Of a DNA stretch of 43,992 bases, positions 5,098-43,992 are shown in pieces. A program made the translations under genes and the position numbers. The DNA comes from a virus. Positions within the stretch are counted from its first letter, which is position 1, and each line of letters starts with the position of its first letter. The notes beneath the pieces were generated by a model. The model saw nothing but the letters and a program-made list of their open reading frames with translations. It searched no databases and was not told the DNA's origin. The DNA lies in IMG/VR virus record IMGVR_UViG_3300014499_000010, positions 1 through 43,992 of that record. One strand, given 5' to 3'.

Positions 5098-5961
5098 ATG
5101 TCCAACAACATTCTTCAGTGGAATCCCTCCGCCACTAACCAGGAAAGCGACTCCGCTTATACTTCCGACGCCCAACGCACGGGCGGCGCCGCGAACCCGT
5201 CGATCTTTACGAGCGCGACGGCGAATAAACTCTTTTACCAACTCTCGACATTCCTCAAAGCGTTCGGCGATTCGCTCTCCGCCAAAGGCTACACGATTTC
5301 CGACGCCAGCGTAACCACCCTCGCCGGCGTTCTCGCCAACGTCGTTACCGAAGTCGATCTCGCGGCCGCCCTCGCCCTTTACGCTCCGCTGGCCAGTCCT
5401 TCCCTCACCGGCACGCCGACCGCACCGACGCAGGCGGCGAGCGATGATTCGACGCACGTGGCGACGACGGCTTATGTCATCGCCGCTATCGCGTCGGGCC
5501 TGTACAACTGCTCTTTCCCGTTGGTGACCACCAACAACATAGTGGTCAACACTCTCGCGAATCTGGTCAAGGCGATCACCAACACGCCTCCGCTTTACGA
5601 CAGCACGACCCTCGTGCCCAATACGTCCTGGGTATCGACATGCTTCACCCCGTTCACGGACTTCACGCTCTACTTGGCGGGACCGGGCGCGGGCTATCAA
5701 AAGCTGCCGTACGGTCTGATTTTGCAGTGGGGTTCGGGCAACGCCCCAACTGGCAACGGCGATCTCGTCAACTTCACGCTCGCGTTTCCGAATACTTGCT
5801 TTCAAGTTGTCGCCAACGACGGCGGCGCGGGCGCGGCCTCCAGTTGCAATTCTTTGACGCCGCAGGTTTACTCGGCGTCCCAGATGCGTATCTATGCCCG
5901 CTCGATCGCGACCAACACTTACGTCACTTCGAACTTCAACTGGATCGCGGTAGGAAACTAA
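5098..5961 (+). CDS. Tail fibre protein
   Basis: A 287-residue protein. Residues about 98-130 hold the collagen-like phage tail repeat (APLASPSLTGTPTAPTQ followed by DSTHVATTAYV), a common trimer shaft signature. The C-terminal 90 residues begin with GYQKLPYGLILQWG and end in NWIAVGN, matching the gp53-like tail-fibre C-terminal domain. Short length suggests a simple receptor-binding fibre attached to the baseplate. The SD AAGGA is at 5085-5090 and the next gene begins directly after the stop. Confidence 0.85.
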   Translation: MSNNILQWNPSATNQESDSAYTSDAQRTGGAANPSIFTSATANKLFYQLSTFLKAFGDSLSAKGYTISDASVTTLAGVLANVVTEVDLAAALALYAPLASPSLTGTPTAPTQAASDDSTHVATTAYVIAAIASGLYNCSFPLVTTNNIVVNTLANLVKAITNTPPLYDSTTLVPNTSWVSTCFTPFTDFTLYLAGPGAGYQKLPYGLILQWGSGNAPTGNGDLVNFTLAFPNTCFQVVANDGGAGAASSCNSLTPQVYSASQMRIYARSIATNTYVTSNFNWIAVGN

Positions 5962-11775: not shown

Positions 11776-12194
11776 GCAAGACCGATCCGTTTCTCGTCGC
11801 TTGCATGACCCAAACCTCCCTCCTCTGCGGTTGCGGCGGCGCTGTCGATTGTCCGAAATGCGCCAGACGCGATAGACTCAGCCGCGAGCAATTCGGCGGC
11901 GAGCGCGAAGCCGTTTTGCGCCGGGATGAGTATCAGTGCCAGGCCTGCGGCGAAGTGGCGGACTTTCTGATTTTGGTGCATCACCGCAAACCGGGCGTGC
12001 AGACGCGCCGTTGGATGGTCACGCTCTGCCGGCGCTGCCATGTGCGGGCGCATTTCCTGCATCGTCCGAGCTACGCCCTGTGGCTCGAATCGCCGCTGCT
12101 CTATGCGCTGTGGCGGGAGTTGCATCGCAAGCAGCCGGAGCAGCGGTTGTTGCTCGCGGCGCCCGAGCCGCCGGAGCAGTTGCGGCTGCTGTAG
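11772..12194 (+). CDS. HNH-type endonuclease
   Basis: A 140-residue protein with GTG start in a GTGA overlap. The N-terminal zinc site is LLCGCGG ... CPKC; the HNH core follows: CQACG (residues about 56-60), LILVHHRKPG (His pair), then LCRRCHVRAH, i.e. two CxxC zinc pairs around a beta-beta-alpha metal finger. Phage HNH proteins of this size are either packaging-associated nickases or homing nucleases. Here it sits in the early operon, far from terminase, so a recombination/repair or free-standing homing role is more likely. Confidence 0.8.
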   Translation: MSKTDPFLVACMTQTSLLCGCGGAVDCPKCARRDRLSREQFGGEREAVLRRDEYQCQACGEVADFLILVHHRKPGVQTRRWMVTLCRRCHVRAHFLHRPSYALWLESPLLYALWRELHRKQPEQRLLLAAPEPPEQLRLL

Positions 12195-12267: not shown

Positions 12268-12292
12268 TACACTCTAGCTGTTCAAGGAGTAC
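12268..12292 (+). promoter_or_regulatory. Possible promoter (-10 TACACT) and strong RBS for the 12,296 gene
   Basis: TACACT at 12268-12273 is followed 10 nt later by AAGGAG (12284-12289), 6 nt before ATG 12296. The -35 region is weak (TTGCTT at 12244-12249, 18-nt spacing). This gene keeps an RBS, unlike the leaderless genes that share the TACACT hexamer. Confidence 0.35.
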
Positions 12293-12295
12293 TAA

Positions 12296-12727
12296 ATGTC
12301 ACAATCATCTTGCAGCCCTGCGGCTGTGCAGAATCATCTTGCGTCTCTTGCGTCCCAAATAGCTCGCGATCCCGCTGCCATGTTGGAAGCGATGAAGCTC
12401 ATCGTTCAGAAGCACTTTGGCGACTCATGGCGCACGGAAGCAGTTCCCCCGACCCAAAACGGCCACCCGCAAAAACGAGGCGCCGTCACCGAAACTGGAA
12501 TCACCAAAGCCATAGAGGCAGTAGTCACCACAATGACTGGAGAGGTCGACTGGAGAGACGTCAACGCGAAACTCGCGCAGACTGGCTATGAAGTGCGGGC
12601 CACGAACGTACGCAACGCCGTCAATCGGGTGCTGCGAAAGCTGGTCGATCGCGGTCTCGCCACCGAAGGTGAAAAAGGAAAAGGCGATCGGCCAAGCCGA
12701 TTCGTGTTGAACAAACCGAAGAAGTAG
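12296..12727 (+). CDS. Putative DNA-binding protein (winged-helix C-terminus)
   Basis: A 143-residue protein. Residues about 65-138 (GITKAIEAVVTTMTGEVDWRDVNAKLAQTGYEV, then NVRNAVNRVLRKLVDRGLATEGEKGKGDRPSRFVL) have the helix-helix-recognition helix-wing layout of a winged-helix domain. The N-terminal 55 residues are helical and may dimerise. It has the clearest Shine-Dalgarno in the early region. It could be a transcription regulator. The tRNA-like gene follows 18 nt after its stop and is probably on the same transcript. Confidence 0.55.
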   Translation: MSQSSCSPAAVQNHLASLASQIARDPAAMLEAMKLIVQKHFGDSWRTEAVPPTQNGHPQKRGAVTETGITKAIEAVVTTMTGEVDWRDVNAKLAQTGYEVRATNVRNAVNRVLRKLVDRGLATEGEKGKGDRPSRFVLNKPKK

Positions 12728-12745: not shown

Positions 12746-12850
12746 GCGGGGTTGGCGGAATCGGTAAACGCAGTAGATTGGGAATCTACAGGGCGGGTTT
12801 CTTGTTCAAGGAGTACCATGCCCTTGCGGGTTCAAATCCCGCACCCCGCA
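12746..12850 (+). tRNA. Leu-type tRNA with GGG (Pro) anticodon and oversized variable arm
   Basis: The acceptor stem is 7/7 (12746-12752 with 12843-12849), followed by A as discriminator (12850). The D arm is typical of tRNA-Leu (GCG/CGC stem, loop containing GGTAAA). The anticodon stem is 5/5 (12773-12777/12785-12789) with loop TTGGGAA, so the anticodon is GGG. The T arm is 5/5 with TTCAAAT. The variable region is about 36 nt (12790-12825), closed by AGGGC/GCCCT, against about 12-16 nt in normal class II tRNAs. CCA is not encoded. The body and A73 are leucine identity features while the anticodon reads CCC (proline). Total 105 nt. Confidence 0.8.
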
Positions 12851-13322: not shown

Positions 13323-13351
13323 AGTCTAACCGCTTTTCGGCGAACCGGCAA
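13323..13351 (-). promoter_or_regulatory. Leftward promoter candidate for the 13,230 gene
   Basis: Reading leftward: TTGCCG (13351-13346), 17 nt, TAGACT (13328-13323). The -10 hexamer is the same as that of the well-formed promoter at 24.4 kb. The resulting leader of about 85 nt contains GAAGAG (13292-13297) and CTCTTC (13304-13309), which can pair. Confidence 0.4.
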
Positions 13352-13407
13352 CATCGCCAAGTACCATCGCGTCTGCGAGCGCCCAACCTCAATGGCGGCC
13401 CGAGGTC

Positions 13408-19772: not shown

Positions 19773-19956
19773 GAGCGCCACCAGTTTCGAAGTCTTCCTC
19801 GACGGCGATGGCGTCGGCTTAGTGCTTCACGGCGCGTCGATTGTCGAAGACGAAAACGGCGGCTTGGCCCCCGGCTGCAAACTGACGCCCGAACAGGCGG
19901 CCAGGCTCGCCGGAACGCTGTTGGGATGTGCTGAGACGATCAAAGGCGAAGCGTAG
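19762..19956 (+). CDS. Small acidic protein, unknown
   Basis: A 64-residue protein: FEVFLDGDGVGLVLHGASIVEDENGG then LTPEQAARLAGTLLGCAETIK, i.e. a small beta sheet followed by one helix. It overlaps the upstream stop. No family recognised. Confidence 0.5.
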   Translation: MSDESATSFEVFLDGDGVGLVLHGASIVEDENGGLAPGCKLTPEQAARLAGTLLGCAETIKGEA

Positions 19957-20029
19957 CGGCATACTGAACGAAAGGAACCGTTCGGTGCCCCTACAAAACG
20001 CCAAAACCCTTTCGGACGAGTACAAAAGA

Positions 20030-20734
20030 ATGAAAAGCGCGAGCAAGAACGGCTTTATCGCCTATTACCGGGTGTCGAGCGTCCGGCAAGGCGAAAGCGG
20101 GCTCGGACTCGAGGCGCAACGGGAGGCGGTTAGCCGCTTTGCCGGCAAAATGCCCATCCGCGCCGAGTTTACCGAAGTCGAATCGGGCAAACGGCACATC
20201 AACAGGCCTCAGTTACTCGCCGCACTCGCCGAGGCGAAGGTGCGCAAGGCGACTCTCCTGATCGCCAAACTCGACCGGCTCGCCCGCAACGTCCACTTCA
20301 TCTCCGGGTTGATGGAATCGGGCGTGGATTTTATTGCGCTCGATATTCCGCACGCGAACAAACTCACCTTGCACATCATGGCGGCCATGGCCGAGCATGA
20401 GCGCGAGATGATTTCACAGCGGACCAAGGCGGGACTCGAGGCCGCAAAACGTGAGATTGAAGCGAAGGGATTCCGCGTAAGCCGCCGTAGCGGGCGCAAG
20501 TACTCAAAGCATGGCAACCCACGCTGGCAGGAATCGATCGCCGCAGCGGCCGCAGCTCGAAAGATCAAGCCTACGCCGGCGCCGGTTCTCGAAATGATTC
20601 GCAGCCTCCGTTCGCAGGGTAAAAGTTATCGCGAGATCACCGAGCAACTGAACGGCCTGGAACTGAAGACTGGCAGCGGGGCTAAGTGGTACGCCAGCAC
20701 GGTCCGCGCCGCGCTCCTCGCCGCCGCTGCCTGA
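20030..20734 (+). CDS. Serine recombinase (resolvase/invertase type)
   Basis: A 234-residue protein from ATG 20030 (SASKNGFIAYYRVSS...). The N-terminal catalytic domain has the Ser nucleophile in YRVSSVRQ, the LLIAKLDRLARN motif and the AAMAEHEREMISQRTKAGL helix. The C-terminus (residues about 165-230) carries a basic linker and a HTH (GKSYREITEQLNGL). This is the short resolvase/invertase size, not the large integrase class. The phage thus carries two unrelated recombinases. No flanking invertible segment or res-like repeats were found, so its substrate is unknown. Confidence 0.88.
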   Translation: MKSASKNGFIAYYRVSSVRQGESGLGLEAQREAVSRFAGKMPIRAEFTEVESGKRHINRPQLLAALAEAKVRKATLLIAKLDRLARNVHFISGLMESGVDFIALDIPHANKLTLHIMAAMAEHEREMISQRTKAGLEAAKREIEAKGFRVSRRSGRKYSKHGNPRWQESIAAAAAARKIKPTPAPVLEMIRSLRSQGKSYREITEQLNGLELKTGSGAKWYASTVRAALLAAAA

Positions 20735-42214: not shown

Positions 42215-43940
42215 CGTTCTCAAATCGTACTTTGTGCAGTTGGGTTTCCAGGTCAATCAGCCCGAGCTTCGCAAATTCGAACTCGGACTGAAAGACGCGG
42301 CGGGCCTCGTCGAATCGGCCACGGGCGGCGTCGTTGCCAATTTGGTCAAGTGGGGTGCGGCGGCGGCCGGCGCTTTTATCAGCGTTACTGGCGCCGTTGT
42401 CGGCATGGCCGATCACGTGGCGATGGCCGATCAGAAGTACCGTCTCATGGGCCTGCGTATGTTCATGACCACGGAACAGGCGCGCAAACTGTCGATGGGC
42501 ATGGAGGCGCTGGGCGCTTCGCTCGAAGAAATCGCCTGGGATCCGGAACTCAACGCCCGCTTCCTCGAACTCAGCCGCGACCAGGATGAGATGGCGACGA
42601 GCCTGGGCGTCAACTACGCAAAGAACATGCGCTCGCTGCGCGATCTGCGTTTTGAATTTACGCGCTTCAAGCAGGAGCTGGAATTTCTCTCCATGGGCGT
42701 CGTGTCGGCGCTGTTCGAGCAATTCGGCCTGACCCTCGGCGACGTGCATCGCAAGCTCGAAGAATTCAACGGCTGGTTCAAAGAGCACATGCCAGAGGTG
42801 ATCGCCTGGCTCGCCGATCAGTTCGGGCCCGCCCTAACGGACACCGGGGACATCGTCGAGGGGCTGGGCTCACTGCTGAAGGATCTCGGCGTTCTCTTCA
42901 TCCATCTGCTCAACATCTTCGCCGAAGACGAGTCGCTCGAAGGCTCGGAACTCACTTTCAAGAAGATCGCTAGCGCGATTCAATTTGTGGTGCATTGGGC
43001 GGCGTTATTTATCCACACCCTCGGGCTGGCGCTGGGAGCGGTGACGCACTTCAGTACCGCCGCCGTCACCGAAATCGAGCTGGTGATCGCAGCACTCAAG
43101 GCGCTCTTCACGGGCGATTGGGGAAATGTCAAGAAGCTGTCGCACCAAGTGACGGCCGAAGTAAAAAAGAGCGCCGAAGACGCCCTCTTCGCGTTCGGCG
43201 GCGCGGCGCTATCAAAGACCGCCTTGGCGCAGAAGCTCGCCAAAGATAATCCGGACCTGCAGCCGCTCATTAACTTCGAGACGCACAAGCAGGGGCAGGA
43301 TAGGGCAGGAGACAAACCGATCCCCACGGGCTCGGCGGCCTGGACCGACACCGTTCCGGTTGACGCTTCGCCGGCGGCCGGGGACGCTCACGATCCGCGT
43401 GGCATCCGCAACAACAATCCCGGCAACATCAACTATGCGGGCCAAACTGGAGCACATCGAGAAGGCGGACCCAACGGCCGCTTCGCTGTCTTTGCGAATG
43501 CTCAGGATGGCTTGAATGCGCTCGCCAAGCTCTTGCGCAGTTACGCGGCCCGCGGCGTCGATACGATCCGGTCGATCATTTCGCGCTATGCGCCGGCGGG
43601 CGATCACAATAACACCGAAGCCTATATCGCCGGCGTGACGAAGCGCTTGGGTATCGGGGCCGACTCGAAGCTCGATCTCTCTCAGGCGAGCGTGCTGGCC
43701 GCCTTGCAGCAATCCATCGTACGGATCGAAAACGGGAAAAACCCCTATTCGGCTGAGATGTACCAAGCCTCCGCCCGTTACGCAGGGGCCACTTTTGGCG
43801 ACGTGCATATTCACGTCACACAGCCGCATGCCACGACGGAAGAGATTCACCGCACCGTCAAGGCGGCTATGACTTCGTCGCTCGAACGGCAGCAAAAACA
43901 GATGCACCGCACGATGACGCAGTTTGCGCCCACCGGTTAA
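42204..43940 (+). CDS. Tape-measure protein with C-terminal muralytic domain
   Basis: A 578-residue protein starting inside the end of the chaperone extension. Residues about 40-70 are a hydrophobic helix (VVANLVKWGAAAAGAFISVTGAVVGMA); 90-250 are helical; 255-300 are a second hydrophobic region. Residues about 393-540 form a lysozyme/transglycosylase-like domain beginning RGIRNNNPGNINYAGQTG and containing GRFAVFANAQDGLNALAKLL, TIRSIISRYAPAGDHNNTEAY. The ending is a short helical segment. At about 1.5 angstrom per residue it predicts a tail near 85-90 nm. The domain would open peptidoglycan during injection. Confidence 0.88.
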   Translation: MDIDVLKSYFVQLGFQVNQPELRKFELGLKDAAGLVESATGGVVANLVKWGAAAAGAFISVTGAVVGMADHVAMADQKYRLMGLRMFMTTEQARKLSMGMEALGASLEEIAWDPELNARFLELSRDQDEMATSLGVNYAKNMRSLRDLRFEFTRFKQELEFLSMGVVSALFEQFGLTLGDVHRKLEEFNGWFKEHMPEVIAWLADQFGPALTDTGDIVEGLGSLLKDLGVLFIHLLNIFAEDESLEGSELTFKKIASAIQFVVHWAALFIHTLGLALGAVTHFSTAAVTEIELVIAALKALFTGDWGNVKKLSHQVTAEVKKSAEDALFAFGGAALSKTALAQKLAKDNPDLQPLINFETHKQGQDRAGDKPIPTGSAAWTDTVPVDASPAAGDAHDPRGIRNNNPGNINYAGQTGAHREGGPNGRFAVFANAQDGLNALAKLLRSYAARGVDTIRSIISRYAPAGDHNNTEAYIAGVTKRLGIGADSKLDLSQASVLAALQQSIVRIENGKNPYSAEMYQASARYAGATFGDVHIHVTQPHATTEEIHRTVKAAMTSSLERQQKQMHRTMTQFAPTG

Positions 43941-43992
43941 AAACTCCATGTCCACGATCTTTCGCCCATTTCCGGCCGATTCGGCTATCCCA
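43870..43992. repeat. Terminal direct repeat (copy 2 of circular overlap)
   Basis: Identical to 1-123. It covers the end of the tape-measure gene and the first codons of the Dit-like gene, whose full copy begins at 79. Confidence 0.95.

Follow-up and report, generated by a model that had tools for sequence, protein, structure and literature searches.

RESULTS

A leucine-type tRNA gene with a proline anticodon

The window analysed here, 43,992 nucleotides in length, is the whole of IMG/VR virus record IMGVR_UViG_3300014499_000010 (G000), which includes no host genome. The only tRNA gene in this 43.9-kb record lies on the plus strand at positions 12746–12850 and has class II architecture, the body of a leucine tRNA, the anticodon GGG, A73 and no encoded CCA, as judged from Rfam, the minimum-energy cloverleaf and isotype hidden Markov models (HMMs). 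Rfam model RF00005 covers exactly 12746–12850 (+) over its whole length (62.0 bits, where the gathering score is 29; E 3.5e-11), and energy minimization folds the sequence into the full cloverleaf (-49.5 kcal/mol, z -4.2), none of 200 shuffled sequences folding equally well. The score and the fold confirm the original prediction of a tRNA with GGG, A73 and a variable (V) arm of 36 nt, and the covariance model, which had been suggested as a check for a pseudogene, returned an intact tRNA. ARAGORN fails to detect the gene, probably on account of the long V arm. A pattern combining the leucine-type D arm, GGG and a long V arm matched once in the window and in none of 100 shuffles.

The gene combines a complete 7/5 cloverleaf with a long V arm, the features of class II. 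The acceptor stem is of 7 bp (GCGGGGT/ACCCCGC) and U8 is present; the D arm, GCGGAATCGGTAAACGC, is of leucine type; the anticodon stem has 5 bp (GTAGA/TCTAC) and closes the loop TTGGGAA (12778–12784), in which the anticodon GGG (12780–12782, +) reads CCC/CCU. The 36-nt variable region (12790–12825, +) folds into a hairpin of 14 bp with bulges (-15.9 kcal/mol, z=-3.35) and terminates in U48, which is able to pair with A15. The T arm (GCGGG TTCAAAT CCCGC) has a 5-bp stem, and A73 is followed by TCC, so that CCA is not encoded. GGG is a single transition (A35G) from the ordinary leucine anticodon GAG, and the GGG call rests on one record, apparently an assembly, from which GAG would differ by the single base at 12781.

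Identity elements and the meaning of CCC

In Escherichia coli, leucyl-tRNA synthetase (LeuRS) depends on A73, pairing of A15 with U48, G18G19 and A20a; the anticodon is not crucial to it, nor is the variable arm (reviewed in PMC9976931). The complete set is present in the window tRNA by sequence parse. When it was compared, with its anticodon masked, with isotype HMMs built from the tRNAs of the loci collected in this study, leucine scored best (29.0) followed by serine (18.8), and proline was outside the top four. The combination of a leucine body and a proline anticodon originally proposed is therefore upheld. The accompanying statement that LeuRS recognizes A73 and the long variable arm and not the anticodon was right for E. 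coli as to A73 and the anticodon, but not as to the variable arm. The tRNA lacks any of the anticodons of leucine decoding (NAG, UAA or CAA). Proline identity is ascribed to G72, G35, G36, A37, A73 and G15-C48 (PMC9976931); the tRNA has G35, G36, A37 and A73 (loop TTGGGAA) and lacks G72 and G15-C48, having G1-C72 and A15-U48 instead.

Homologues of the phage proteins indicate that CCC still means proline in this phage. Among 580 homologous residues aligned to phage CCC codons 63% are proline, leucine being outside the six commonest residues, and proline is modal in nine of the 12 well-covered columns; on these alignments reassignment of CCC to leucine is rejected. The single modally leucine column, in the head morphogenesis protein (26759), looks like ordinary divergence between sequences. 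The original prediction had likewise judged complete reassignment unlikely, and in this it agrees with the alignments, but the evidence it cited, a conserved CCC-encoded proline in the WNP...SP region of the terminase, fails: WNP has its proline encoded by CCG, and the SP proline close by, a CCC codon, is not conserved.

A recurrent class of leucine-type tRNAs with other anticodons

A pattern for leucine-type tRNAs with any anticodon lacking A35 matched at least 119 stretches of IMG/VR. Most of the phage tRNAs of this type with non-leucine anticodons have UGG, and UUA, UCC, UGC and UGU also occur. Restriction to proline anticodons leaves ten other IMG/VR contigs, again mostly with UGG, and these phage records hold just one to three tRNAs each. 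Variable regions of 24 nt or more are found in few genuine leucine-anticodon tRNAs of IMG/VR; the proline-anticodon tRNAs with such regions are that of the window and those of loci L059, L104/L119 and L106. Among 25 odd tRNAs (the window's included) with diverse acceptor stems and anticodons for proline, glycine, alanine, threonine or stop, U48 is present in all 25 and A73 in 24, and the C1-G72 of proline tRNAs in only two. A14A15 is also present in 25/25, although in 17 of the 25 it follows from the search pattern, in which portions of the D and T arms were specified; A73 and U48 were in no pattern, and the other eight loci were reached through neighbouring genes, without selection by pattern. 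The simplest reading of these sequences is that leucylation would be under selection and the decoded codon free to change, because A15, U48 and A73 are kept whatever the anticodon.

The GGG anticodon itself is rare. A pattern requiring the leucine-type D arm, GGG and a V arm of at least 8 nt found no other contig in IMG/VR, and in GTDB found one contig among 84,980 genomes, L002 (Ca. Versatilivorator, Acidobacteriota), where a leucine-type GGG tRNA with encoded CCA occupies 5803–5889. No full-length counterpart of this tRNA was found within its family. In 396 Acidobacteriota genomes, the only bacterial genomes sampled with patterns other than GGG, GAG matched in 231 and any NGG matched only in L002; the pattern is therefore sensitive and the rarity real. 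In the L002 metagenome-assembled genome, which is incomplete, this is the sole GGG tRNA among those recovered, and normal proline tRNAs with UGG and CGG are present.

Association with IS1595-family transposons and a small winged-helix gene

An IS1595-family transposase (PF12762/PF12760) is encoded near the odd tRNA at L059, L106, L063, L104/L119, L057, L023 and L024. Inverted repeats well above those of shuffled sequence flank transposase and tRNA, with 8-bp target duplications: AAAAAGTC at L024, TCTTTCCT at L063/L375, GGAAAATG at L362 (on the same contig as L292, where the winged-helix gene described below is also found), AAAAAATT at L299 (which is L106), TAATTTTC at L339 and CCATCGCC at L354. 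A search of IMG/VR with the transposase alignment gave 80 loci, 12 of which, by our reading, carry a leucine-type tRNA with a non-leucine anticodon (eight UGG, two UGC, one UUA and one GGA), three of these 12 being query contigs (L299, L306 and L375). Control phage loci amounting to 862 kb contained no IS1595 gene, and ARAGORN counted no class II tRNAs among them whose anticodon was odd. Among open-licence papers we found none describing IS1595 transposons with tRNA passengers. The inverted repeats of the L057 element enclose a leucine-type odd tRNA without a clean 8-bp target duplication. Further cargo includes the winged-helix gene, at L063 an AlbA/pAgo-like protein and near L059 a DNA methyltransferase. 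Programmed missense in the transposases of UGG elements was considered and rejected, their CCA codons falling at proline or variable columns, none of them modally leucine.

The winged-helix gene, defined by alignment A1, encodes a small coiled-coil/winged-helix protein and starts a few tens of nucleotides 3' of the tRNA at L009, L072, L057, L060, L071 and L120. When IMG/VR was searched with A1 alone, all eight loci recovered (L287–L294) had a class II tRNA just upstream, each of leucine type with the anticodon UGG, UCC or UUA and never one for leucine; several of the eight are contigs that supplied A1, and at least two (L288 and L292) are new. The A1 proteins had no match in plasmid and phage collections, their predicted fold is that of a generic winged helix only, and a PADLOC search of the neighbours gave no match for the winged-helix or transposase proteins.

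The window tRNA was examined as IS1595 cargo and rejected as such, there being no transposase homologue, terminal inverted repeat or match to the terminal-inverted-repeat consensus nearby; the best inverted repeat around it scored 13, against a 95% value of 14.5 for shuffled sequence. No A1-family gene lies directly downstream, and the winged-helix-like open reading frame (ORF) upstream is unrelated. Since neither an IS1595 element encloses it nor an A1 homologue adjoins it, the window tRNA joins the recurrent class by structure, not the transposon by descent. What it has in common with the class is the leucine body and an NGG anticodon, the extra-long V arm being found also at L059, L104 and L106.

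Genome context

An exact 123-bp direct repeat at the record ends (1–123 = 43870–43992) makes the contig a probably complete genome of about 43.87 kb. The phage is a myovirus and encodes portal, TerL, major head, tail sheath and baseplate proteins and tail fibres, as well as a Mu Gam-like protein and a DNA-invertase-like serine recombinase (19928–20734). The terminal repeat is present although the record ends carry the class 'linear'. The nearest annotated relative of the portal protein is that of Burkholderia phage Magia (57.6%), and the closest relative found is G001, whose TerL is 85% identical. Parts of the block at 11.8–13.4 kb are inverted with respect to G001 and the remainder has no match there. 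Because of this, and because G001 has no tRNA, the window tRNA is, on sequence comparison, to be counted as accessory, lying where the phage genome is variable. It had no match among annotated phages. With respect to the synteny on either side, the stretches 11799–12191 and 13323–13357 have the opposite orientation in G001; they may mark an invertible or hypervariable segment, a DNA-invertase-like serine recombinase being encoded.

Immediately upstream is a 143-aa ORF (12296–12727, +), for which predicted secondary structure suggests, with low confidence, a C-terminal winged helix; the model has a predicted local distance difference test score of 56, and of about 70 for the winged helix-turn-helix part. 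Its stop lies 18 nt upstream of the tRNA, the gap contains no promoter- or terminator-like site, and the two are probably co-transcribed. No relatives of this ORF were found in IMG/VR, and homology to the A1 or L122 gene was rejected for want of significant similarity (hhalign probability 0.7% for A1). The 14-mer TGTTCAAGGAGTAC in its ribosome-binding region (12279–12292, +) occurs again within the V arm of the tRNA (12803–12816), which also includes AAGGAG-TACC-ATG. The V arm as an antisense to this ribosome-binding site was likewise rejected, the pairing ranking 32nd of 35 start sites and thus being no better than at others.

DISCUSSION

We hypothesize that the window tRNA is a leucine-charged missense tRNA that would place leucine at a low level at CCC/CCU codons in competition with host tRNA-Pro, a reading to which we give about an even chance. 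In the sequence of events that we infer, a tRNA of leucine identity would have acquired GGG by an anticodon switch; it would be transcribed together with the upstream winged-helix gene, trimmed by host RNase P and then supplied with CCA, and charged with leucine by a host LeuRS which, if like that of E. coli, is blind to the anticodon. The charged tRNA would then compete with ordinary host tRNA-Pro at CCC/CCU, giving low-level proline-to-leucine missense and not a new code, so that the gene may be cargo of unproven benefit. In favour of this reading are the intact cloverleaf, the complete E. coli leucine set, the HMM scores, the retention of A15, U48 and A73 in related tRNAs of unrelated elements whichever anticodon they bear, and the unchanged meaning of CCC. 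Several points weigh against this hypothesis. The identity rules are those of E. coli, and the LeuRS and prolyl-tRNA synthetase (ProRS) of the phage host may follow others. CCC is common in the phage (109 of 390 proline codons in 21 ORFs), so strong missense would be harmful to it. G001, the closest relative found, does without a tRNA, and the nematode nev-tRNAs are mature and are leucylated in vitro, with no detectable mistranslation (PMC4300185).

More broadly, mismatched leucine-type tRNAs in phages, often inside transposons, look like a recurring device. Phages and IS1595 transposons may carry dedicated leucine-charged missense and nonsense suppressors with exchangeable anticodons, often together with a small DNA-binding protein, the insertion of leucine at CCA, UAA, GGA, GCA, ACA and CCC/CCU serving as a weapon, a switch or an anti-defence measure; we offer this tentatively and think it somewhat doubtful.

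An unlikely alternative is that the tRNA is an anti-defence decoy, its leucine body absorbing a nuclease or hindering a defence directed at tRNA-Leu and its anticodon and long V arm resisting cleavage. Phage tRNAs with altered anticodon loops have been proposed to evade host tRNases (PMC10264068), Septu is reported to cut the variable loop of tRNA-Tyr (PMC13096335), and so long a V arm is, as described above, rare in genuine leucine-anticodon tRNAs. However, a tRNA with a proline anticodon could not replace depleted tRNA-Leu at leucine codons, the anticodon arm has been kept functional-looking (5-bp stem, U33 and A37), and the analysis turned up neither a nuclease nor a defence as the target.

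It is distinctly unlikely that the gene is a phage tRNA-Leu(GAG) bearing A35G as a recent mutation, an assembly error or a mark of decay. The single transition, the single record, the failure to find a second GGG in IMG/VR and the absence of the tRNA from G001 would all fit such an accident, yet the rest of the tRNA is intact, and proline anticodons are found on leucine-type tRNAs of ten further IMG/VR contigs, as well as at IS1595 loci reached without a tRNA query. A35G is therefore not peculiar to one assembly.

Charging by ProRS through G35, G36, A37 and A73, which would make the gene a remoulded proline tRNA supplying extra capacity at CCC/CCU, appears decidedly improbable. Those determinants (PMC9976931) are all present and CCC is proline in the phage, but C72, paired with G1, and A15-U48 stand in place of G72 and G15-C48. 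Moreover, sister tRNAs keep the leucine set with glycine, alanine, threonine or stop anticodons, which ProRS could not explain. Scarcely credible is tRNA-dependent lysogeny, in which the phage tRNA would make good the loss of a host tRNA gene through integration: a serine recombinase and a single tRNA are present, but a tRNA with the body of one isotype (leucine) and the anticodon of another (proline) can stand in for neither, and among the proteins scanned the serine recombinase was the only one of its kind, with no tyrosine integrase.

To return to the proposed missense tRNA, taken by itself the gene is a variant within a known kind, the identity-mismatched tRNAs, and the wider class with its transposon and winged-helix partners is of more interest. 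The nematode nev-tRNAs, V-arm tRNA-Gly(CCC) and tRNA-Ile(UAU), are likewise leucine-type class II tRNAs with non-leucine anticodons and no evident change of code (PMC4300185), but they are nuclear genes with other anticodons, whereas the gene described here belongs to a phage and some of its sisters are transposon cargo. In the Streptomyces tRNA-ProX system (tRNA-ProA/N/T with ProRSx; PMC11415595), also bacterial, body identity again contradicts the anticodon, but there a proline body with alanine, asparagine or threonine anticodons, A33 and A15-A48 is co-encoded with a dedicated synthetase; the window tRNA has a leucine body, U33 and A15-U48, and no synthetase gene was found. The allo-tRNAs (PMC7609411) are class II tRNAs with long V arms, whose many anticodons are at odds with the body, but they are of serine type with 8/4 or 9/3 arms, in contrast to the leucine-type 7/5 structure here. 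Phage suppressor tRNAs that recode stop codons (PMC10879173) also alter decoding, and several sister elements carry UUA; unlike them, the window tRNA targets a sense codon, CCC/CCU, without reassignment. Finally, in the passenger-gene transposons of the IS1595 family the sister tRNAs sit between inverted repeats with 8-bp target duplications, whereas the window tRNA does not.

Naming by anticodon alone labels such genes tRNA-Pro, as ARAGORN does, or misses those with long V arms, and a class of potentially code-breaking genes may therefore go unseen. If they do receive leucine, they would be naturally mobile mistranslation genes in phages, and would touch on two questions: why single tRNAs are found in phages, and how strict the reading of sense codons is. 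Their link to IS1595 transposons and to the small winged-helix gene provides a concrete, cloneable genetic unit.

Two other groups of tRNA-like genes were noted. The members of one family are nearly identical in the acceptor (AGTCAGG/CCTGACT), the D arm and the T arm but have a hypervariable middle, with widely differing anticodon triplets and an anticodon stem that for the most part does not pair (L014, L028, L030, L039, L042, L053, L056, L061, L062, L069, L070, L079, L084, L089, L090, L095, L097, L100, L108 and L116); possibly it is not ordinary tRNA. The other consists of phage genes for tRNA-Asn(GUU) in which the variable arm is long, like that of class II, and position 73 is G, found at L012, L026, L034, L044, L049, L085 and other loci.
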